Source: a virus. Taken from it: a DNA stretch of 64,000 nt. The notes under the pieces were generated by a model, which saw only the letters and a list, made by a program, of their open reading frames with translations, had not been told where the DNA came from and searched no databases. This document shows positions 10,106 through 55,633 of this stretch, piece after piece; position 1 is the stretch's first letter, and each line of letters begins with the position of its first letter. The DNA lies in the IMG/VR virus record IMGVR_UViG_3300009370_000009, positions 1 through 64,000 of that record; one strand, written 5' to 3'. The position numbers and the translations under genes are program-made.

Positions 10106-10528
10106 ATGGCAAAAGAAGATTCAATAAGCATTTCTAAATCTGAGATAATTGCTGCCCTGTCTAAAGTTGAAGATATCAAGGAAAAGACATCTGTTGGAAT
10201 TAAGCAGGCCACTAGCACTCTAGAAAAGATTAAAGACAATATTGCCTGGTTGCTAGGCTTGCCTGCCACTATAGGTGGTGCATTTGGTTTCTTGATAGAC
10301 TCTGGAAACGAGCAGGCTGAATTATCATATCAGGTGGCTCAATTGGAAGACGCCGTTGCTGAACTTAAGGCTGAAAATGATTTGCTTGGCGGGGGAGCGA
10401 AGAATTTCAGTTTAGATTTGTCTAATGCACCTGGTGGCTCATTGACGCCTATTTTAGTCGGTATTACGATTGTTATTCTTGTTGGAGTCCTATTCTGGTA
10501 TCAGAGTAGGCGAAGAAAGAGAGGATGA
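10106..10528 (+). CDS. small membrane protein with coiled coil, upstream of lipoprotein
   Basis: A 140-residue protein. Residues 1-48 are a charged helix, followed by a moderately hydrophobic Gly-rich stretch (IAWLLGLPATIGGAFGFLI, residues 49-67). A coiled-coil-like segment (residues 70-95) and a clear transmembrane helix (ILVGITIVILVGVLFWY, about 114-131) follow. It ends in a strongly basic tail (RRRKRG), which by the positive-inside rule should face the cytoplasm. GGGGGAAT gives a weak ribosome site. It overlaps the lipoprotein gene by ATGA, so the two are probably co-translated and act together at the membrane. A holin- or spanin-like role is possible because the endolysin is downstream, but no family is recognised. 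Confidence 0.6.
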   Translation: MAKEDSISISKSEIIAALSKVEDIKEKTSVGIKQATSTLEKIKDNIAWLLGLPATIGGAFGFLIDSGNEQAELSYQVAQLEDAVAELKAENDLLGGGAKNFSLDLSNAPGGSLTPILVGITIVILVGVLFWYQSRRRKRG

Positions 10529-13500
10529 AAAAACCCTCAGCGATATTTGTCGCTGGGGCGCTACTCCTCGCCAGCTGCTCGAGTGGTTCTACAGAGTCTG
10601 AGATTACAACAGGAACATTGTTTCCGGCAACTACTACTAGTGTGGTGGAAACGGATCGGCCTGTAGTTACAACAACTACGTCAACAATTGCGCCGGTAAT
10701 GTTGGAGAGTGTTCCTCTGGTTGATTACGCTATTCCTGAATATACCGCAGAGAATGATACATTTTCTTTTGAAAACTTTGGCGGTGGAGAAGCTCCAGCC
10801 GACTTAACTGTGAACATGGCTCGCCGTTTGTATGGCGACAACCAGGTATGTTCTGATGTTACGGATAACAAGTGTACGCCGTATCCTGTGATTCTACAGT
10901 TGATGTCGCAGGCCAATAAGTCGATGCGTGGCGGTTTGTGTGAAGGGCTGGCTGTATTGAGTATGCGTCTCTCTGGTGATATTGAAACGCTGGCATCTTT
11001 TCAAAATACTACAACTGTTGCCGAACTGATTAAAGAAGACCCTGCTTTGCTTTCTGAGATTGCCTATTGGTATGTAACCCAGTTTGCAATGGAAGTCCAA
11101 CAAGAGGCTTCGTCGTATTTAGAGTTGTCACCGACGGCATTGGCTGAGATTCTGCTGTATGACTTCGCAGAGGCAGAACAAGGCAATCCTTATACTGGGT
11201 TCACAATCGGTATTTACAGCGACAAGGGAGGTCACGCTGTGACTCCTTATCGCGTTGAAGAGATGGCTAGTGGGTACAGGATATATATTTATGATTCAAA
11301 CTGGCCCGGTGAAGAGCGTTGGATAGACGTTTCCAAGGATGGCACTTGGATATATGCGTTAGCCGCTACTAACCCTACTGAGCAGTCAGAGGCGTGGTCT
11401 GGCGGGGTTGGGACTATGGAATTGACACCTATGCGTGCCCGTACTGGGCCTTTTACTTGTAGTTTCTGCCCTCAAGAAGAAGGGGAGGAATCTGGCACGA
11501 TGCTTACTGTTGCTGCTTCTGGCAGCAAGCAGATGGCATTAAAGATTGAAACTGAATCCGGGCAAAGACTTGGATACTATGACGGGGCATTTGTTAACGA
11601 GATTCCTGGGGCGACGTATAGGTATCTCATATCAGGACCAAGTACTTCTGATCCCGTGCTTGTTTTCCTGCCACCTGGTATTGAAACTTTCAGTGCCGAT
11701 GTTGAAGAGATTGCTGTACCGGGAAAGGATGAGCCAGTTTCGACTAAAGATAGAATTGAAGACGCTATAGAAGAGGTAGTGGAGCAAAAGTTCTCCTTGT
11801 TGGTTTTAAATGAAGAAAAGTCGGTTCAGATTGAGGCTGTAATAGTTGAGGAAGAAGAACCTGAAAGGTGGGAGCAGCCCGATGATGAATCTGAGGAAGA
11901 GCAATCTTTGCTTGATTTCTCTGAAGAATCTATTGAGATCGCAGAGATTGAGGAAGCCACAGTTGCAATTGCTGTTGACTCTCTTGAAGTCGAAGTTGAA
12001 CTAGATACAGGGCAGCAAATCGAACTGGTATTTGATTCAGAGCCAGAAATTTCTGATGAGCTAGATATGATGGATATTTCCATTCAAGATAATGAAGGTG
12101 AATTGCTGGCTGAAGTTGAGGTTGATCTGTCCGCTTATAGGGCTGTTGCTGCCGTGGAAGAGCCAACAACGACTACACCTGACCAGCCTAGCGTTACAAT
12201 TCCTACGCCAGAACCGGTAGTTGTTCCTGTGATTATTGAAATAGCATACAATGAAGAAATTGGTGAAATTGTTCAAGAGGAAGAAGTAGTTGAGGCGTGG
12301 GTTGCCTCAGATGCTGAGTATTATCAGGCTGTAGCAGAAGATAGAATTGAAGAGGTGTTGGGAGAGTCTTATGTAGAAGAGATTCAAGATGTTAGTGAAT
12401 GGGAGGCTCCTGAAGAGTTTGATGATACAGAATTGGATATGGCTGAGATTATTCTTAGCGTAGATGAGGAATATTGGGAGGACGAACAGTGGGATGAGGT
12501 TGATTATGATGATGAATGGTTTGAGGAACAAGAGGATGAAGTAGAAGAATTCTTCGCAGAGGCTGTTGAGTTAGAGGTGGTTGTTGAGTTTATTGAAGAG
12601 CATGAAGAAGAATTAGCAACCTTCTTTATCAATGAAGAGGTTGATGAAGAAGAGTTTTGGGATGCCTATGAAGAGGAATACTATGAGGAAGATTTTGCTT
12701 TCCAAGAGTATGATGCCGAACTCGAGGAAGAAATGATCCTTGAAGAATTTGGATTAGAAGAGTGGAACGAAGACTTATTAGGGCCGGCTCCAACAGAGAC
12801 TGAAGAGTGGACTGAAGAGGATTGGAATGCTTATGATGAGGAAATGGATGAGATTTGGGAAGAAGAGATGGAAGATCCAGAAGCATGGGAAGAGGAACTT
12901 CTGGAAGAATTAGGGGTAGAGGAATGGGACCCAGATTGGGGACCATCACCAACAGAATCAGCAGACTGGACTGAGGATGATTGGGATGCTTACGATCAAG
13001 AATGGGCTACTGACGAAGAGCAGCGTATTCTTGAGGAAGAGGGCTTGGAAGAGTGGCCAGAAGACTGGGGGCCATCACCAAGCGAAACTGCTTTATGGAC
13101 TGAAAGCGATTGGATCGCTTATGACGAAGAGCAGGAACTATTATGGGAGGTCGAAAATGAGACGGATACCAATATCGCCGTGGAAGAGGATTGGCTTGAT
13201 GAAGATTGGTTGGAAGAAGAAGTTGAAGTTATATCTGAGATTGATTTTGGATTAGAGGATGAGTTGGTTGAAGAAGAGTTTTTAGAGATGCTATCTGAAC
13301 TTAGCGAAGATGAGTTGGATGATTGGGAAGACTTCATAGGTGATGAAGAAGAGGAAGAATGGTATAATGAAGAGGACTCTATTGAAGAGGAATTGGAGGA
13401 TATAGATGAAGAAGAGTGGAATCAAGAACCCGGCGAAGATGGGGACGAAACTTGGTGGGGGGATGATGAATCAGAAGACCAGGAAGAAGAAGGGTGGCTG

Positions 13501-15246
13501 GAAGGAGCCGAAGAAGAAGTAGAAGATTGGGACGAGGATTACGAGGAAGATCTTGAAGACTCAACCGAGGAAGACGTAGATAGTTTTGACGAAGAATTTC
13601 TGCCCGAGTCGGATTTACCTTCAGAGGAAGAAGTGGATGAAGAGCAAGTGGATGAAACGGAGATGCCTCCTGCAGAAGAGGACGAAGAGCGGGGGGAGGA
13701 GTTAGATGAAGAAGTCGAAGAAGAATGGGAAGAAGAAAGCGAAGAGATATTTGAAGAAGATGAGGAAGAAGAATGGGAGTGGGAAAACGAAGGAAGCACT
13801 TCCGATGAGGGGGATGACCAAGACGATTCTACATGGGATGAATCCGATCTCGAAGATGAAGCCGTAGAGGAAGAGTCTTGGGACCCTTATGAACAGTGTA
13901 GAGGAACGTCAGCTTGTGACAGTGCCCCTGGAGGGTATGAAACTTGGGACGATTACGATCAAGCAAATGACCCCGGCTACTACGACGACTGGGGCGACGA
14001 ACTGCCGAGTGGGTATGCGACATGGGCTGACTTCGCTCAAGAGGTGGAAATAGGGGTAGTCAGCGCCGACGTTGCTGCCGAGTATCTGCCCGAAGAGGTG
14101 CAGGAAGCGATCATCCCTGTGGTCGTCGTCGTAGAGGAGGTCTACTATCCGACGGTTTCCTACACATACGAGGACGTTTCCATATCGGAAATCCTGTCAA
14201 CCAATGTTTCCACGGCTCAGACCGGAACGGCTACCAGTTCAGTCGTGACGGCTACGAACGTTACCGGCACTGAGGTAACGGCTGCGAATGTCACTGGTAC
14301 AGAAGTCTCTACGGATATGACCGCCGTGTTGAGTCGTGATGCTAATGACGGGCACTGGCATACTTGGGAGACAACGGTAACTACGACTGAAACTACGACT
14401 GAAACTACGACCCAAACTACGACAGAAACTACGACTGCTACGACGGTGACCAATACCCTTGTTGACACAACGACTGTTGTCGGTCGTACTGGTTCCGACA
14501 TGACAACTTGTACGTTCTATGACGGGGTGAACGTCGGCTGCTCCACGGCGCGTGGATGGAGTCCTGAGACAACTACCGTCACTGTTGGAGATCCCTACAC
14601 CGAGGCCAGCACAACGACCGCTACGGCGGACGTAGTGACGACTGTTACGGCTGACGTTGTAACCACCGCAACCAGCACAGCGAGCCAGCAGGTCGAACAG
14701 GGTTGCTCTGAGGGCGGCTGGACAGGGATGGGGGACTGGTGCATCGTCTCGTCTAGCAGTCGCACCGATTACGACTACATCCAGTTCACATTGGATGAGC
14801 CAACGAGCATCCGTATCGACGCTGAAACAAACCTGACCCGCGCCCAGTTCAATACGAACAACGAGGCTGGTGACCCCTACATCTACCTAAACTGGGATAC
14901 CCACGCTCCTGAAGGAAACCACTCAGGAGACGCATCAGCAGTAGGGGTTGGTCAACTGATTGAAAGTGACGATGACGGCGGGAACGACTGTGGGAACACT
15001 TGTCTCAACCCGCCCAGCACCGCCGTGGATGTGGATGAAACTCCACATGTAATTAGATGCGAAGATGCTGGCACCGATTGTTCAGATTGGCCGGATCTCC
15101 CCCCAGTCATCGACAACGTTAGTGATCAGTGGGATAGTCGCATCGTCCGCACCAATCAGGCTGCGGGCAACTATGTAGTAAGAGGTTCGGTCTATAACGG
15201 AAACAATGACGGGTGGTATCGCTTGACGATTGAGGAGGTCGAGTAG
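10525..15246 (+). CDS. giant phage lipoprotein: papain-like domain, hyperacidic repeats, Thr-rich stalk, C-terminal beta domain
   Basis: A 1573-residue protein. Residues 1-18 form a lipoprotein signal peptide (KK, hydrophobic core, lipobox LLASC with Cys18); a Thr/Ser linker follows to about 60. Residues 90-330 hold motifs like bacterial papain-like cysteine peptidases: Cys139 in GGLCEG, His237 in GGHAVTPYRV and Asn259 in YDSNWPG. From about 440 to 1120 roughly half of the residues are Asp/Glu, with many Trp and Tyr. A Thr-rich segment near 1290-1320 (TTTE repeats) leads to a C-terminal domain (about 1410-1573) with DYIQFTLDEP, DPYIYLNW and GNYVVRGSVYN, resembling pre-peptidase C-terminal (PPC) beta domains. 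Secretion and lipid anchoring outside the cell membrane are predicted. The base composition changes at about 13900. Peptidase activity and role (exclusion, cell-surface binding, virion part) are untested. Confidence 0.75.
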   Translation: MKKPSAIFVAGALLLASCSSGSTESEITTGTLFPATTTSVVETDRPVVTTTTSTIAPVMLESVPLVDYAIPEYTAENDTFSFENFGGGEAPADLTVNMARRLYGDNQVCSDVTDNKCTPYPVILQLMSQANKSMRGGLCEGLAVLSMRLSGDIETLASFQNTTTVAELIKEDPALLSEIAYWYVTQFAMEVQQEASSYLELSPTALAEILLYDFAEAEQGNPYTGFTIGIYSDKGGHAVTPYRVEEMASGYRIYIYDSNWPGEERWIDVSKDGTWIYALAATNPTEQSEAWSGGVGTMELTPMRARTGPFTCSFCPQEEGEESGTMLTVAASGSKQMALKIETESGQRLGYYDGAFVNEIPGATYRYLISGPSTSDPVLVFLPPGIETFSADVEEIAVPGKDEPVSTKDRIEDAIEEVVEQKFSLLVLNEEKSVQIEAVIVEEEEPERWEQPDDESEEEQSLLDFSEESIEIAEIEEATVAIAVDSLEVEVELDTGQQIELVFDSEPEISDELDMMDISIQDNEGELLAEVEVDLSAYRAVAAVEEPTTTTPDQPSVTIPTPEPVVVPVIIEIAYNEEIGEIVQEEEVVEAWVASDAEYYQAVAEDRIEEVLGESYVEEIQDVSEWEAPEEFDDTELDMAEIILSVDEEYWEDEQWDEVDYDDEWFEEQEDEVEEFFAEAVELEVVVEFIEEHEEELATFFINEEVDEEEFWDAYEEEYYEEDFAFQEYDAELEEEMILEEFGLEEWNEDLLGPAPTETEEWTEEDWNAYDEEMDEIWEEEMEDPEAWEEELLEELGVEEWDPDWGPSPTESADWTEDDWDAYDQEWATDEEQRILEEEGLEEWPEDWGPSPSETALWTESDWIAYDEEQELLWEVENETDTNIAVEEDWLDEDWLEEEVEVISEIDFGLEDELVEEEFLEMLSELSEDELDDWEDFIGDEEEEEWYNEEDSIEEELEDIDEEEWNQEPGEDGDETWWGDDESEDQEEEGWLEGAEEEVEDWDEDYEEDLEDSTEEDVDSFDEEFLPESDLPSEEEVDEEQVDETEMPPAEEDEERGEELDEEVEEEWEEESEEIFEEDEEEEWEWENEGSTSDEGDDQDDSTWDESDLEDEAVEEESWDPYEQCRGTSACDSAPGGYETWDDYDQANDPGYYDDWGDELPSGYATWADFAQEVEIGVVSADVAAEYLPEEVQEAIIPVVVVVEEVYYPTVSYTYEDVSISEILSTNVSTAQTGTATSSVVTATNVTGTEVTAANVTGTEVSTDMTAVLSRDANDGHWHTWETTVTTTETTTETTTQTTTETTTATTVTNTLVDTTTVVGRTGSDMTTCTFYDGVNVGCSTARGWSPETTTVTVGDPYTEASTTTATADVVTTVTADVVTTATSTASQQVEQGCSEGGWTGMGDWCIVSSSSRTDYDYIQFTLDEPTSIRIDAETNLTRAQFNTNNEAGDPYIYLNWDTHAPEGNHSGDASAVGVGQLIESDDDGGNDCGNTCLNPPSTAVDVDETPHVIRCEDAGTDCSDWPDLPPVIDNVSDQWDSRIVRTNQAAGNYVVRGSVYNGNNDGWYRLTIEEVE
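12739..13132 (+). repeat. three tandem coding repeats in acidic region of the lipoprotein
   Basis: Copies start at 12739, 12901 and 13030. Each codes a conserved stretch of about 34 residues: LEE.G.EEW, then GP.PTE (or GPSPSE), then WTE.DW.AYD.E, separated by variable acidic spacers. The rest of the acidic region is irregular. Confidence 0.65.
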
Positions 15247-15282: not shown

Positions 15283-16155
15283 ATGTCAATGTTAGTACAT
15301 GAAACGTTTGGAGATGGCTGGGAGAGGTCATGGAAAGGGGAGGTTCACCACGCCTACAAGAGTGGTGACGCGTTACGCCTGATGTTTCGAGAGGGAAAGC
15401 ATTATGGTTGTGCCTTATATCAAGAAGTCGCCCCTTCTCGTCATGTAAAATGTTCATATATGGTTAGAGCTCTTGGAAATTGGAACTCTGACAGCACGGG
15501 GAAAACATTAGGATTTGCAGATTTAAGATGGAAAGATGACAGGGGGCGATCTTATGGTCATGGCAATAGGAGACCTAATCCTGATGGCTTTTCTTTTAGA
15601 ACTTGGTTTGGTAAGTCTAAAGACGGTAAAATGCCAATCGGTATGTACTTTTATCACCTGGGGCAGACCCCTAGATGGGGTGATTCTGTTAAGGTAGGGG
15701 AGTTAACAATTGGTTCTGCTCCAGTTTTGTTTGAATGCGAAGCCGATTTTGACGAAGGATTTATTCGTGCTAGGGTTGATGGTGGCGATTGGGTCAGGCA
15801 TAATCTAGTTGTTACGGACAAGACGGCAGTCAATTGGGCTTGGTTGGATGCTTATTACGGTGGCCCTGCTGTTGCGCCAGAGAATATGGCGTGGGATGTT
15901 TCAGATTATAAACTAGAAAATTTAGGGCCAGATCCCATGGACCCGAGTATTGATTGGGATGGGATTATGAAAATGATCGCTGAAAAGGAAGAGGCTGCCA
16001 AGGAGACAGCGGAATCTGAGGAAGCGGTTGAAAAGGTTGTATTGGATGGGTTGGCGGAGCATGGACTGAAGTCAGTTTCTGAAAATTCGCTGATTCAAGA
16101 TTTACGAGATTTAGCAGATAAATTAGAGGCTTTGGAAGCCGGAAAGGTAAGTTAA
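15283..16155 (+). CDS. polysaccharide-lyase-like virion or secreted protein
   Basis: A 290-residue protein. Residues 1-220 resemble the jelly-roll fold of polysaccharide lyase family 14 and related lectin-like proteins: W..SW.GE near the start, ALYQEV, GFADLRWKDD, SFRTWFG, MYFYHLGQTPRWGDS and a final W.VSDYKLENLG. The C-terminal 60 residues are helical and charged (EKEEAAKETAESEEA). PL14 enzymes cut acidic glycans; I cannot identify the catalytic residues with confidence, so sugar binding without cleavage is possible. It sits just before the endolysin, preceded by a possible leaderless promoter, and overlaps a small gene by TAATG. Confidence 0.55.
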   Translation: MSMLVHETFGDGWERSWKGEVHHAYKSGDALRLMFREGKHYGCALYQEVAPSRHVKCSYMVRALGNWNSDSTGKTLGFADLRWKDDRGRSYGHGNRRPNPDGFSFRTWFGKSKDGKMPIGMYFYHLGQTPRWGDSVKVGELTIGSAPVLFECEADFDEGFIRARVDGGDWVRHNLVVTDKTAVNWAWLDAYYGGPAVAPENMAWDVSDYKLENLGPDPMDPSIDWDGIMKMIAEKEEAAKETAESEEAVEKVVLDGLAEHGLKSVSENSLIQDLRDLADKLEALEAGKVS

Positions 16156-16328
16156 TGAGTGTAGTTACGAATTTTAATCCTACTGCTGAAGAAGTTATCA
16201 ATGAACTTACGAATCACCCAGATGGGAAGGTTCAGTTAGAGATGGCAGTTCTTCGTGCAGTGGTTGCCCGTCAAAAGGCATATATTGATGCATCGCAAGA
16301 AAGCGAGGAGGAAGAGGAGAACCCATGA
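16155..16328 (+). CDS. small hypothetical protein (57 aa)
   Basis: A short gene between the lyase-like protein and endolysin, starting on TAATG and ending on ATGA with the endolysin start. It reads MSVVTNFNPTAEEV and ends in SEEEEENP, with helical, charged content between. The perfect fit between two overlapping starts and stops supports it being real. No family is recognised; an endolysin partner is conceivable from position only. Confidence 0.6.
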   Translation: MSVVTNFNPTAEEVINELTNHPDGKVQLEMAVLRAVVARQKAYIDASQESEEEEENP

Positions 16329-17035
16329 GCATCCCAGTCTCAAGCTCGCGTGTCGATCTGAGCCTACTGCATCCTAGGTTCAAATTGAGGTTAGAAAAGT
16401 TTTTTGAAGATCCAAGAATACGTGGTCGTGTTGTTGTGACATCTGGGTGTCGCTCTTATGCTAAACAGAAATATTTATATGACAAGTATAAGGCGGGTCG
16501 TGGTAATTTGGCTGCTAATCCTGATTGGCAGCGTCCTGACGGGTTCTTTAAGGGGTCTTTTCATATGGAGCAGCCTGATGGGTATTGTTATGCTGTTGAT
16601 TTTGGCCTCGTAAGCAAGAAAATTAAAACTTGGGAAGTTAATGCTATTGCTAAGCATTATGGTATTCGCCCAACTGTCAGTAGTGAATGGTGGCATCATC
16701 AGCCCCGAGATGGGAATGACTGGTTTGGTGTTGAGGGTGGCGCCCCGGAGCCAGAAGAGGTTAAGAAGGAATCAAAGATGGATTGGCTGGGTTTGGTAAG
16801 GCTTTTGAATCAATTAAAGGATGAGGTTCAAACTAAGCCGATTAAGTATAAAGAGCGTTCTGAGCGGGTGAAGATTCTTCAAAGACGTTTGGGCGCAGTT
16901 GGATTTGATGCCGGTGTTCCTGATGGCATATTTGGAAGGGGAACCCGTAAAGCTGTTAAGAACTTTCAAAGGGTTAGAAGACTAAAGTCTGACGGTCATG
17001 TTGGGCCGGCTACCTGGAAAGCGTTGTGGGAGTAA
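16325..17035 (+). CDS. endolysin: VanY-type D-Ala peptidase plus peptidoglycan-binding domain
   Basis: A 236-residue protein. Residues 1-135 match the D-alanyl-D-alanine carboxypeptidase / L-Ala-D-Glu peptidase family: TSGCRSYAKQ, His80 in SFHMEQ with Asp92 in AVDFG, and E121-W-W-H124 in SEWWHHQ, giving the zinc ligands and catalytic Glu. The insertion between His80 and Asp92 is longer than in classic HxxGxAxD motifs. A charged linker leads to a C-terminal peptidoglycan-binding domain (about 170-236: VKILQRRLGAVGFDAG, DGIFGRGTRKAV, FQR, DGHVGPATW). It cleaves host wall peptides at lysis. No signal peptide is visible, so it depends on a holin; the recognisable holin lies 21 kb downstream. Confidence 0.85.
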   Translation: MSIPVSSSRVDLSLLHPRFKLRLEKFFEDPRIRGRVVVTSGCRSYAKQKYLYDKYKAGRGNLAANPDWQRPDGFFKGSFHMEQPDGYCYAVDFGLVSKKIKTWEVNAIAKHYGIRPTVSSEWWHHQPRDGNDWFGVEGGAPEPEEVKKESKMDWLGLVRLLNQLKDEVQTKPIKYKERSERVKILQRRLGAVGFDAGVPDGIFGRGTRKAVKNFQRVRRLKSDGHVGPATWKALWE

Positions 17036-17304
17036 GAGTTTGGATAGACCAAGACCTCTGTACGGGGGATGGTCTTTGTGAGGAAATATGCCCTTCCGTG
17101 TTTGCAATGCACGATGATGGCTTGGCTTATGTCAAAGAGGCACACTGGCCGACGATGTACGGACCAGATGGGTCACCGAAAGGCGATCCCGTGTATCAGA
17201 TGTCTACAGGCTTAGCCACTGTACCGGAGAGTGACATCGAGGCGGCGATAGAGGCTGCTGATGAATGTCCCGGGGAGTGTATTTTTATAGAGGTTGAGGG
17301 CTAA
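17026..17304 (+). CDS. ferredoxin, single [4Fe-4S]-type cluster
   Basis: A 92-residue protein starting at GTG 17026 inside the end of the endolysin (10-base overlap), with GGAAAG upstream. The N-terminus VRVWIDQDLCTGDGLC is typical of actinobacterial small ferredoxins. Cluster ligands are Cys12, Cys18, Cys22 (followed by Pro) and Cys81 (followed by Pro); the presence of Cys22 favours four iron atoms over three. Cys85 is extra. A loop between the halves (residues 36-66, including YGPDGSPKGDPVY) is longer than in minimal proteins of this type. It would carry electrons in the cytoplasm, as an auxiliary metabolic gene. No partner reductase is in the window. It ends just before a good promoter for the connector genes. 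Confidence 0.8.
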   Translation: MGVRVWIDQDLCTGDGLCEEICPSVFAMHDDGLAYVKEAHWPTMYGPDGSPKGDPVYQMSTGLATVPESDIEAAIEAADECPGECIFIEVEG

Positions 17305-26604: not shown

Positions 26605-29388
26605 ATGGCTACAGCTTTTAATGACGGCTATAATTCGTTTACTCATCCGTTAACTTATTCATTCACTGGTACTACTCGAGAGATTGAGAGTGGCGCCATA
26701 ACTATTTCAGCGTCTGGTTCTGCTGTCACTGCTGCAACGTTGGTGGAGCATCTTGCTGCTGCGGTTATTGGTGCAGGTTCTGCTGTTATTGCGGCTTATG
26801 GTGAGCGGGTTGGCGTTTGTCAGATGTCGGGTTCTGGGTCTGTTTCTTGTGCGGCATCTAAGGTTGCTGTGGCTAGTTCTGCGGTGTCTGGTGCTGGTTC
26901 TGTTTCGGCTACGGGTATTGAGGAGTTGTTGGCTTCTTCGTCGCCGTCTGGTTCAGGTTCTGTGTCTGCGACGGCTTATGAGATAATCCATGCTTCTGTG
27001 GCGATTTCTGGTACGGGTTCGTCGGTTACGGTTGGTATTGAAGAGTTGTTGCCGACGGTTGCGTTGTCTGGTTCGGGGTCGGTGTCGTGTTCTGCGATGG
27101 AGATTCTGTTTGGTTCTGTTGCTATTTCTGGTACGGGTTCTTCTGTTACTGTTGGCATAGAGGAGTTGTTGCCAACGGTTACTATGTCTGGGACTGGTAC
27201 TTTGTCGTGTACTGGTATAGAGGTTCTTCTGGGTGCTGCATCGTTGTCTTGTTCGGGTTCTGCTGTTACTGTTGCTATTGAAGAGTTGTTGCCAACTGTG
27301 ACTTTGGCTGGGGCGGGCACTGTGTCTGCTACTGCAACGCCTATATTGTTCGCGTCTGCTGCTGTTTCGGGAGCCGGGGCGGTGTCGGCGTCTGCTGTTG
27401 AAATCTTGTATGCTTCTGCGGCACTATCTTGTTCTGGTTCTGCTGTATCTGTCGGGATGGAGGAACTGCTACCAGAGATTACTTTGTCTGGAACGGGTAC
27501 GCTTTCAGTTTCGCATTCTGGCATCCAGTATGCTTCGGCGGCTATTTCCGGGTCTGGTACTGCGGTGTCGGTTGCTGGTCTGATTGAATATGCTTCTTCT
27601 GCGATAATCGGTGTTGGTTCTACTCTGTCGGTGGCAATCGAGGTATTGCTTGATTCGACAACACTTGCCTGTACTGGAACTCTGTCAGCGACTGGTACGG
27701 AAGTTCTGCATGGCGCTTCAGCGGTTTCTGGTTCTGGTTCTGTGTCGTGCGTTCCGTTGGTGTTTAATGCTGGCGCTGTTGTATTGTCTGGATCTGGTTC
27801 TGTTGATGCGGATTATGGTACTGGTTTGTTCGCCAGTGCGGCTTTGGCTGGAAGTGGTTCTGCTGTTTCTGCAGCCGGTTTGATAGAGCATCTGGCTTCT
27901 GCTCTTGTTGGTGCTGGTTCTTCGTTTATTGCTGCTATGGGGATACGATTTGGTAATGCAACTGTTACTGCAAGCGGTAGTGTTGCTGCTACTGGAACAG
28001 AGATCAATCACCGTTCAGTTGCTGTGTCTGGGTCTGGTACGTTGTCTTGCGTTTCGCATGCTGTTAGACCTGGGTATCCTTCGGTTTTGGCCGGTTCTGG
28101 TTCTACTGCTGCTGTTGGTCGGGAAGAACTTCTGGGTGTGTCTGCGTCTAGTGGTTCTGGTAGCGTGTCGGGGACTTCGTATAAGATTAGGTATCTGTCG
28201 ATATCTATATCTGCTACTGGTTCGTCTCTGGCGGCGGGTAGGGAGGTTTTGTTTAATACTTCGGCTCAGTCTGGTATCGGATCTTTGGCTGCTGCCCCTG
28301 TTGTTGTCAAGAGTTTGAGTGCTGCTATATCTGGTAGTGGTTCGGTTGCAACTGATTATACCAGGCATGCTTTGTCAAGTTCTGCGTTCTCTGGTGCTGG
28401 ATCTGTTTCTTCTTCTGGTACTGAGGTGTTGTTTGGTAGTGTTGCTCCTATATCTGTTGGTTCTACGGCTACGGTTGGGAGTGAGGTGCTGTTAGCTACT
28501 TCTACGATATCGGGTGCCGGTTCTGTTTCTGTTACTGGTACGGAGGTTGTGTTTGCCAGTGCGTCGTTGTCTGGTTCTGGCACCGTTCCTGATGTTGCGT
28601 GCAGCAAGATTGCTGTTGGGTCTTCTGGCCCTGTTGCGGGTTCTGGTTTGGTTGCGGTTATCGCTAGGGAAGTTTTGTTGGTGGCGAAGGAGTTGTCTGG
28701 GTCTGGTTCTGTTCCTGCTGTGTCATCAACGGCGGATCGGATAGTTGATCCTCCAGCCATGTCGGGTGCAGGAGCCGTGACTGCTGTTGGGGAGATTCAG
28801 ATTGTGGCTTCTCCTACGTTGTCTGGTTCTGGATCGATTAGTGTTGTGGTTACTCAGATTGGGAGAGCGGTTCTTAGTGCTGATAGAAGCAAAGTTGGTG
28901 TGATGGATGATTGGCTGTACCTTATGCGTCTTGATAATAATCCTATAACTGAGCAAAATAGGAAATTTGGGATTTCTGAAAAGTTTAATTCTGTGTCTAC
29001 GGTTAGTAGGGCAGATGGGAATACTAACAGGTTTTTCCCAACAGATTACAATAAGAAGGTATTTAAGTTTACTTGGAAGTTTATAGCAAACGACAAGCAG
29101 GGTAATTTCGATTTCTTGAATGGGCGTGATTATTTGAAGTCTGTTGCTGATGCCGATTCGATTCATACTCTTGGTTTGCGTAGTGCAACGAGTTCGGTAT
29201 TTGATGCTGATGGGGATTACAGTGTTGTGGTAAAATCATATAGTGAGAATCTTGTCCGTAGGGCGGTTGTTACTGATACTGTTGATGGTGTTGTGTCTGA
29301 TGATGCTGAGATTGGGACGCCGTTGAATAGTGATAGTAAGTATGGTAAATATTTTTGGGATGTTACTATGGAGTTTGAAGAGGTATGA
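26605..29388 (+). CDS. distal-tail-like protein with 36 copies of a 20-residue repeat
   Basis: A 927-residue protein. Residues 1-33 are a unique start. Residues 34-758 are 36 consecutive repeats, nearly all 20 residues long, with consensus (V/I/L)SGSGSVS(A/V).G.E.LLAS.A: a small-residue turn SGSG, a beta strand, a variable position pair, a second strand or hydrophobic patch. Residues 760-927 are the distal-tail-like domain shared with 26128-26604 (QNRKFGISEKF, NTNRFFP, GRDYLKSV, YSENLVRR, FWDVTMEFEE). The regular period suggests a beta-solenoid shaft or a rigid fibre projecting from the tail tip. Function of the repeat is unknown. Confidence 0.75.
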   Translation: MATAFNDGYNSFTHPLTYSFTGTTREIESGAITISASGSAVTAATLVEHLAAAVIGAGSAVIAAYGERVGVCQMSGSGSVSCAASKVAVASSAVSGAGSVSATGIEELLASSSPSGSGSVSATAYEIIHASVAISGTGSSVTVGIEELLPTVALSGSGSVSCSAMEILFGSVAISGTGSSVTVGIEELLPTVTMSGTGTLSCTGIEVLLGAASLSCSGSAVTVAIEELLPTVTLAGAGTVSATATPILFASAAVSGAGAVSASAVEILYASAALSCSGSAVSVGMEELLPEITLSGTGTLSVSHSGIQYASAAISGSGTAVSVAGLIEYASSAIIGVGSTLSVAIEVLLDSTTLACTGTLSATGTEVLHGASAVSGSGSVSCVPLVFNAGAVVLSGSGSVDADYGTGLFASAALAGSGSAVSAAGLIEHLASALVGAGSSFIAAMGIRFGNATVTASGSVAATGTEINHRSVAVSGSGTLSCVSHAVRPGYPSVLAGSGSTAAVGREELLGVSASSGSGSVSGTSYKIRYLSISISATGSSLAAGREVLFNTSAQSGIGSLAAAPVVVKSLSAAISGSGSVATDYTRHALSSSAFSGAGSVSSSGTEVLFGSVAPISVGSTATVGSEVLLATSTISGAGSVSVTGTEVVFASASLSGSGTVPDVACSKIAVGSSGPVAGSGLVAVIAREVLLVAKELSGSGSVPAVSSTADRIVDPPAMSGAGAVTAVGEIQIVASPTLSGSGSISVVVTQIGRAVLSADRSKVGVMDDWLYLMRLDNNPITEQNRKFGISEKFNSVSTVSRADGNTNRFFPTDYNKKVFKFTWKFIANDKQGNFDFLNGRDYLKSVADADSIHTLGLRSATSSVFDADGDYSVVVKSYSENLVRRAVVTDTVDGVVSDDAEIGTPLNSDSKYGKYFWDVTMEFEEV
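26704..28878 (+). repeat. 60-bp coding repeat array, 36 units
   Basis: Units of about 60 bases (20 codons), exceptions being 19, 21 or 22 codons at units 23, 29, 30, 32 and 34. The turn is coded mostly by tctggttctggttct-like DNA. Alternating pairs such as VGIEELLPTV recur every second unit among units 6-13, so the array probably grew by duplication of two-unit blocks. Confidence 0.75.
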
Positions 29389-38454: not shown

Positions 38455-38664
38455 ATGTTAAATTCAACTTTTATTAAGGATGCTCTTGAGAGGGCTATCT
38501 GGACTGCAGCTCAGGCTTTTCTTGCTGTCTTTACTGTTGGCGATATGGCCAGCGCGAAGGCTGCGGGTGTCGCTGCTGTTGGTGCCGGAATATCTGTTCT
38601 GAAGAGTGTTGTTGCAACTCAGGTTGGCGAAAGCGGCACTGCTGCTACCTTACCAAAGGGTTAA
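38455..38664 (+). CDS. holin, r1t-like
   Basis: A 69-residue protein with AAAGGAGAAAAA before ATG. Pattern FIKDALERAIWTAAQAFLAVFTVGD, then AAGVAAVGAGISVLKSVVA gives two membrane helices joined by a short loop, as in the r1t holin family that is common in actinobacterial phages. It would form the membrane lesions that release the endolysin. The endolysin gene is 21 kb upstream; here the holin stands with a metallophosphoesterase and zinc-ribbon gene. Confidence 0.75.
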   Translation: MLNSTFIKDALERAIWTAAQAFLAVFTVGDMASAKAAGVAAVGAGISVLKSVVATQVGESGTAATLPKG

Positions 38665-54505: not shown

Positions 54506-54630
54506 TGAAGTTGTTTTTGCATGCTGTTTGGTTGACTGTTTTTGGTGTTGGTTGTGTTGTGATTGCTTTGTTTGTAGCGTTGTTTGTGGATCGTTTGGTT
54601 TACAGGAAAGGGTTTAGGAATGTCAGATAG
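54505..54630 (+). CDS. single-span membrane peptide (41 aa)
   Basis: Starts on TGATG. It consists of one strongly hydrophobic helix (WLTVFGVGCVVIALFVALFV) and a basic C-terminus ([13 protein letters not shown]), which should face the cytoplasm. The end overlaps the start of the GMP reductase-like gene by 11 bases. Function unknown. Confidence 0.45.
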   Translation: MKLFLHAVWLTVFGVGCVVIALFVALFVDRLVYRKGFRNVR

Positions 54631-55633
54631 TAATTTTTTGTGTTATGATGATGTGTTGATTGTGCCGGGGTATTCTGAGGTCGAGTCTCGTAAGGGTTGT
54701 GATACTTCTGTTGCGTTTTCTGGGCTGGGTGGTGTTCATTTGGGTTTGCCTGTGATTGCTGCTAATATGGATACTGTTTGTGAAGCGGAGATGTGTAGGG
54801 CTATTTCTAAGCATGGTGGTATCGGTGTTTTGCACCGCAATTTGTCTGTTAAGCAACGTAGGGATCAGTTTCTTAGTGTTGTTAATGGCGGGTATCAGTG
54901 TGGTATTGCTTTGGGGGTTAATGAGGTTCCTTTGATGTCTGCTCGTTCGTTTCTGTTTCATGGGGCGAATATGATTGTGTTGGATGTTGCTCACGGCCAT
55001 TCTAAGCGTGTTGGGGACGTTGTGACGGCTTTGAGGGGGCTTATTGATAAGAATGGGTATAAGTGTACGTTGGTGGCTGGTAATGTGGCTACTCCTGCTG
55101 GTGCGGAGTTTTTGGCTGATGCTGGTGCTGATATGGTTAAGGTTGGTATTGGCCCGGGGGCTGCTTGTACGACTAGGTTGCAGACTGGTGTTGGTGTGCC
55201 GCAGTTTTCTGCGGTGATGGAGTGTTCTGAGGCTTTGTCTGGTTATTCGGATGTGCAGATTATTGCTGATGGGGGGATTAAGAATCCTTGTGATGTGGCT
55301 AAGGCGTTGGGTGCTGGGGCTGATGTTGTAATGTTGGGCGGTATGTTGGCTCGTTGTGTTGAGGCTCCAGGTAGGGTTAAGAAGGTTGATGGTGTTAGGT
55401 TGAAGCAGTATCGTGGTATGGCTTCTGCTGGTGCCGGCTCGAGCTATGTTGAGGGTGCGGAAGGTTGGGTTGTCTGTGATACTGATGTTGGTTCTGTGAT
55501 GACTTCTATTTCTAATGGTTTGCAGAGTTCTATGTCTTATGTTGGGGCTAGGACTTTGAGGGAGTTTGGGGAGAATGTTGCGTTTGTTACTGTGTCTCCT
55601 ATGTGTGTGAATGAAAACGGAACAAACTTTTAA
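54620..55633 (+). CDS. GMP reductase / IMP dehydrogenase-like enzyme
   Basis: A 337-residue TIM-barrel protein from ATG 54620 ([19 protein letters not shown]). IMPDH/GMPR motifs: [38 protein letters not shown] with catalytic Cys183, [25 protein letters not shown] and [10 protein letters not shown]. It lacks the CBS pair typical of IMPDH and is GMP-reductase-sized. GAACTTR replaces the usual GSxCTTR. The substrate direction (GMP to IMP, or IMP to XMP) cannot be told by eye. It would alter the host purine pool during infection. The gene is built almost entirely of T/G-rich codons. Confidence 0.8.

Follow-up and report, generated by a model that had tools for sequence, protein, structure and literature searches.

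A coupled membrane-protein and lipoprotein gene pair, shared by otherwise dissimilar phages, as a candidate host-envelope cassette

The stretch of DNA analysed here, referred to as the window, covers the opening 64 kb of an IMG/VR virus record that is 90,382 bases long. It contains an open reading frame for a lipoprotein of 1573 residues, LP (10525–15246), and immediately before it a frame for a protein of 140 residues, P0002 (10106–10528). A preliminary description of this DNA had claimed such a lipoprotein frame with a small membrane gene coupled upstream; both genes exist and have an ATGA in common, which points to their translational coupling. The features of the pair and two neighbouring genes are as follows.

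10106–10528, plus strand: P0002, the membrane partner of 140 residues, directly upstream of LP
10525–10528, plus strand: ATGA overlap of the P0002 stop and the LP start; the same −4 spacing is found in 39 of 78 homologous pairs
10525–10578, plus strand: LP signal peptide and lipobox LASC with Cys18, a cysteine that all 71 aligned phage homologues have
10579–10713, plus strand: Thr-rich linker, residues 19–63
10714–11712, plus strand: N-terminal enzyme-like domain (N-domain), residues 64–396, with conserved Cys 109, 117, 312 and 315 and a candidate Cys-His-Asp site
10939–10941, plus strand: Cys139 (GLCEG), candidate nucleophile at a helix start, in 71 of 71 phage homologues and in the model
11233–11235, plus strand: His237 (GGHAVTPY), candidate base on a strand, from the alignment and the model
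11293–11301, plus strand: Asp257-Ser-Asn259 (YDSNWP), candidate third catalytic residue, Asp257 preferred
11722–12324, plus strand: strand-rich middle segment, residues 400–600, with a WVASDAEYF motif conserved in most phage members
12325–13884, plus strand: hyperacidic, Trp-rich region, residues 601–1120, 49.8% Asp/Glu, with 34 Trp and 3 Lys/Arg
14062–14724, plus strand: Thr-rich stalk, residues 1180–1400, 29% Thr
14737–15243, plus strand: C-terminal domain (C-domain), residues 1405–1573, with conserved cysteines and a weak likeness to PPC
16325–17035, plus strand: endolysin (VanY-like and PG_binding_1), a neighbour outside the cassette proper
17026–17304, plus strand: ferredoxin gene (Fer4_15, E 1.6e-18), found beside LP in 13 loci

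Scanning IMG/VR with the N-domain yielded 75 loci, and wider profiles yielded, for each profile, the best 80 of about 103 relatives; after removal of duplicates, at least 80 distinct phage loci carry LP. In 78 of 80 such loci P0002 is the gene immediately before LP, and in the remaining two (L063 and L148) the contig starts within LP, so the proposed partnership holds in relatives. Complete homologues of LP measure 997–1733 residues and have the same architecture throughout, with the exception of one (L011, 1007–3493) that stops inside the acidic region at 828 residues, possibly through truncation or a sequencing frameshift. Against L004 and L005, dN/dS was about 0.045 in the N-domain and 0.12–0.14 in the strand-rich and acidic part that follows. 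This low ratio and the retention of the architecture indicate that LP is a real gene under strong constraint and not a chance or spurious frame. The N-domain had no match in 50,697 phage records (tblastn, E ≤ 0.01). The phage pair was also seen beside a collagen-like gene on a 3264-base contig assigned to a Phycisphaerae metagenome-assembled genome (L081, JASLZV010000272.1), which is probably a misbinned phage contig.

LP begins MKK...LLLASC18, a signal peptide with a lipobox cysteine as in bacterial lipoproteins, and both elements occur in every member with a complete start. The lipobox that had been read from this sequence is therefore present, and with it the surface-anchored architecture is supported. 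A hyperacidic, Trp-rich centre had also been described; beyond the core listed above, residues 440–1170 as a whole are 44% Asp/Glu, the net charge of LP is −407, and the region contains diverged repeats of the type EEWxxDWGPSPTExxxWTExDWxAYD. It follows the WVASDAEYF segment in most members and is found in all complete phage members at lengths of about 140–850 residues, the window's copy lying near the top of that range. Because its length varies so widely and it is absent from the cellular homologues that were checked, the acidic region appears to act as a spacer and not as a catalytic part. The Thr-rich stalk claimed beyond it is likewise present.

The C-domain retains the motifs DPYIYL, DDDGG, WDSRI and GWYRLTI. 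Its reported PPC-like character stood in part: five of 24 homologous C-terminal ends touch Pfam PPC (PF04151; best E 0.0024), whereas the window's own C-terminus has no PPC match and the curated cut-off for the family was not reached, and a PDB sequence search with the domain returned nothing credible. Although the C-domain is on average less conserved than the N-domain (0.57 against 0.69), its identity exceeds that of the N-domain by more than 10 points in 20 of 820 pairs, and between L037 and L060 the identity rises from 73% in the N-domain to 97% in the C-domain. Sequence identities of this kind indicate that the C-domain is swapped between phages by recombination, as would be expected of a specificity module.

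The stalk and the beta-rich end look fibre-like, and the window's pair adjoins tail fibre and tail assembly genes, all of which would suit a virion component, a role suggested in the preliminary description, for example a tail-tip or head decoration protein. The signal peptide and lipobox of all members with complete starts speak against it, as do the constant coupling to a membrane protein, the occurrence of the pair away from tail genes, and the fact that the cellular homologues are nearly all lipoproteins. The universal lipobox in particular makes this reading very improbable. Elsewhere in the window, 26605–29388 encodes a 927-residue protein rich in repeats, each about 40 residues long and of the SGSGSVSATAxEILxASxAISG type.

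P0002 has two hydrophobic segments, at about residues 46–64 and 108–132, which suggest a membrane hairpin with both ends inside. Its N-terminal part is variable and coiled-coil-like, its C-terminus is basic (RRRKRG), and the conserved loop reads DLLGGG.KNFSLDLS.APGGS. Comparison with Pfam XhlA fell below the cut-off (E 0.0027, 18.3 bits against 34.7). P0002 was considered as a holin and this was dropped, because a clear r1t holin is encoded at 38455–38664; P0002 is thus probably not the holin. Scanning the DNA before P0002 for promoters turned up nothing beyond matches at or near chance expectation.

Across 71 aligned phage N-domains, Cys18, Cys109, Cys117, Cys139, His237, Asp257, Ser258, Asn259, Cys312 and Cys315 are invariant. 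The Cys139/His237/Asn259 site that had been read from the sequence therefore stands as far as the presence and invariance of its residues go, but the third residue is more likely Asp257, since in one cellular homologue (L154) the Asn is gone but the Asp remains. No credible match to the N-domain was found in Pfam, PHROG, NCBIfam or PADLOC or among PDB sequences, the last searched with phage-only and with phage-plus-cell profiles. The domain is homologous over essentially its whole length (about 30–40% identity) to uncharacterised lipoproteins of Myxococcota, represented by L082 and L083 and by 17 Myxococcota genomes out of 284 sampled, a count that takes in the seed genome; nearly all of these relatives are lipoproteins as judged by eye. 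Six of them (L160, L161, L162, L165, L166 and L167) have Ser in place of Cys139, and L166 also lacks the His, so the candidate cysteine is not kept by every member, and these cousins are possibly inactive or Ser-based. Together, L082, L083 and L151–L167 outline a so far undescribed family of secreted domains in Myxococcota lipoproteins, one subgroup of which bears Ser for the candidate catalytic Cys.

A papain-like domain had been proposed for this part of LP. A first fold that included the disordered N-terminus reached a pLDDT of 56 and gave no useful matches, and an AlphaFold model of residues 64–396 built from 40 sequences (m2e0d56f7d4af) reached a pLDDT of 80.4 and a pTM of 0.79. In this model, and in LP numbering, residues 139–151 form a helix and 235–247 and 250–256 form strands, so that the Cys begins a helix, the His lies on a strand and the Asp comes after the next strand. 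This is the order in papain-like enzymes, in which the Cys stands at a helix start, the His on a strand and the Asp or Asn after the next. The predicted order of elements fits the proposal, but no significant fold, profile or sequence relative accompanies it. Foldseek found no PDB match at E ≤ 0.001 (cathepsin S ranked 19th, with E 0.087 and TMq 0.21), and hhalign of the N-domain against C1, C39_2 and Transglut_core members from Myxococcota gave probabilities below 2% throughout. Structural matches in BFVD, one at E 4.8e-4, were set aside because their TM-scores were too low to mean anything. A papain-like fold is plausible on the strength of the model, and we regard the N-domain as a candidate Cys-His-Asp enzyme whose family is undescribed.

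The neighbours of the pair vary among phages while the pair itself is kept. Three phages (L006, L014 and L017) have only P0002 and LP in common with the first 36 kb of the window (tblastn), and of 28 records that are relatives by DNA polymerase III alpha, many of them partial, 27 lack LP and the sole carrier belongs to the same species. The idea that the cassette is a component of the phage core was dropped on account of these 27 records, many of which are fragments. Changing neighbours and the lack of LP in polymerase relatives together show the pair behaving as a cassette, and it is probably an exchanged accessory unit tied to host or habitat. WhiB was found in 14 of 17 LP-bearing records and, with three matches over the cut-off, in the window's own record, and in the control set it matched in Corynebacterium only; the hosts are therefore most likely actinobacteria. 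From contig identifiers, the LP-bearing set is probably mainly marine. The end of the window's record (about 81500–90382, L225) lies mostly on the minus strand and includes WhiB-like genes at 84527–84661 and 85656–85796. An open reading frame at 54584–55633 resembles GMP reductase or IMP dehydrogenase by eye and may be an auxiliary metabolic gene; two 349-residue frames at 54.6–56.7 kb were suspected of being a tandem duplication, which on checking proved false.

Certain genes recur beside the pair, among them endolysin and r1t-type holin genes (eight loci each). An endolysin or r1t-type holin gene lies a few genes away in the window and in L006, L007, L016, L054, L055, L058, L060, L061, L062, L139, L170 and L174. 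In L060 the genes run endolysin-holin-P0002-LP, and the arrangement is similar in L054, L055, L139, L170 and L174. The pair might then be a lysis accessory in which, after the holin and endolysin have acted, P0002 and the LP enzyme would breach or loosen an outer or wall-associated layer that was still in place. This likens it to spanin pairs or to mycobacteriophage LysB by position, not by sequence. A coupled membrane protein and lipoprotein recalls Rz/Rz1, and near-constant pairing in unlike phages fits a required envelope function. By an approximate hand count, however, a recognised lysis gene stands within a few genes in about eight of 21 distinct contexts and is missing nearby in about 13, including several in which the pair heads a unit next to genes of opposite orientation; in L014, L020, L037, L041, L110 and L115 the pair opens such a rightward unit. 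This survey weakened the notion of a fixed place for the pair in a lysis operon. Lysis and tail genes adjoin in many phages anyway, the window's r1t holin (38455–38664) is far off, DNA-polymerase relatives lack the cassette, and the candidate catalytic domain sits at the membrane end of LP and not at its outer end. The hosts suggested by WhiB are actinobacteria, which are mostly monoderm and as such need no spanin. Because lysis genes are recurrent neighbours, this role ranks close behind exclusion and is nearly as likely, although taken by itself it is unlikely.

A different set of companions would suit a moron, that is, a lipoprotein that serves the infected host, for instance by binding divalent cations or by warding off grazers or other cells, whether catalytically or not. 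Ferredoxin and staphylococcal-nuclease genes recur beside LP (13 loci each), the latter often downstream (L064, L066, L068, L069, L073, L007, L020, L027 and others), the hyperacidic region suits ion binding, and LP shares its N-domain with bacterial lipoproteins. No tyrosine integrase was found in the window's record, so that, as far as this integrase type goes, a long-term benefit to a lysogen is not indicated, and we regard a moron as rather improbable. A further gene of 290 residues without known function (15283–16155 in the window) recurs near the pair in 10 loci.

We prefer to see P0002 and LP as a host-envelope cassette of actinobacteriophages with a role in exclusion or in preventing readsorption, and give this a probability of a little under two in five. 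What is well supported is a co-inherited cassette of membrane protein and lipoprotein, placed by its lipobox outside the membrane of an infected actinobacterium and bearing an exchangeable outer end; LP is very probably displayed outside the infected cell. Of the two coupled genes, the first would give a small hairpin protein in the membrane and the second a lipoprotein which, once exported and lipidated, stays on the membrane's outer face; actinobacterial lipoproteins sit on the cytoplasmic membrane. The enzyme-like N-domain would lie close to that membrane, and the polyanionic, Thr-rich arm of variable length would cross the wall and present the exchangeable C-domain outside. The Cys-His-Asp domain may cut or modify a protein near the membrane while the arm and C-domain act at the cell surface, and the altered envelope would exclude further phages and keep released progeny from being lost on infected cells or debris. 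This role is preferred because the unit is accessory, mobile between phages and surface-directed, with a recombining end.

Several observations weigh against exclusion. The pair matches no PHROG or PADLOC family, and in the window it sits amid genes for structure or lysis, whereas lytic phages usually have their exclusion functions among the early genes. The candidate Cys is missing from some cellular homologues. Near-constant presence in the set could also reflect a needed function such as lysis. The boldest picture, which we offer tentatively and consider somewhat doubtful, is that phages exchange horizontally a new system for remodelling the surface of the marine actinobacteria they infect. 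It would combine a membrane hairpin protein with a polyanionic lipoprotein enzyme that spans the wall and has interchangeable tips, and this enzyme would come from an undescribed cysteine-hydrolase family that Myxococcota share.

The preliminary description had called this architecture unfamiliar from phages, and no described phage family matched it in PHROG, PADLOC or phage-record searches. Phage surface lipoproteins are a known kind; the architecture of LP, the pair and the N-domain family are undescribed in the sources searched. A unit that recurs in phages sharing little else implies a repeated need or profit at the surface of hardly studied hosts. LP would add an enzyme-headed, wall-spanning class to the phage surface lipoproteins, and its N-domain points to a family in phages and Myxococcota that is described in no database searched. 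Clear and cheap tests can be built on the pairing, on the invariance of the site and on the exchangeability of the end.

Among known systems, the closest by sequence are the Myxococcota lipoproteins (L082, 1936 residues; L083, 542 residues; L151–L167), whose N-domains are homologous to that of LP (34% identity for L082; HMM E-values down to 8e-54 for the set). Like LP they have a lipobox in nearly all cases and CEG, GHA and YDxN motifs, and most have the same Cys pairs. Unlike LP they have no hyperacidic arm in those checked, no P0002 partner was seen, and they end differently, L082 in Laminin_G_3 and cEGF. Papain-superfamily, C39 and transglutaminase-core enzymes share with LP the order of elements and short motif likenesses (HAV..., GHCE.FA), but no significant sequence, profile or fold match. 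Rz/Rz1 spanins and mycobacteriophage LysB are encoded near holin and endolysin, as the pair is in some phages, and Rz/Rz1 are a coupled membrane protein and lipoprotein as P0002 and LP are; LP differs in its 1000–1700 residues, its enzyme-like head, its want of a family match and its apparently actinobacterial hosts. That phage lipoproteins do the work proposed here makes an exclusion role credible. Ltp of Streptococcus phage TP-J34 is a superinfection exclusion lipoprotein (PMC3952083), phage-encoded and exposed on a Gram-positive host cell as LP would be. Ltp is small, belongs to the lysogeny module of a temperate phage, and is not known to have an enzyme-like domain, acidic arm or membrane partner such as LP has; LP shows no homology to PHROG or PADLOC exclusion families and is not assigned to the Ltp type. 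Llp of phage T5, a lipoprotein made in the infected cell that prevents reinfection and adsorption to debris (PMC9586334), is small, binds an outer-membrane receptor of a Gram-negative host and has no known homology to LP, yet it exemplifies the role that we propose for LP.
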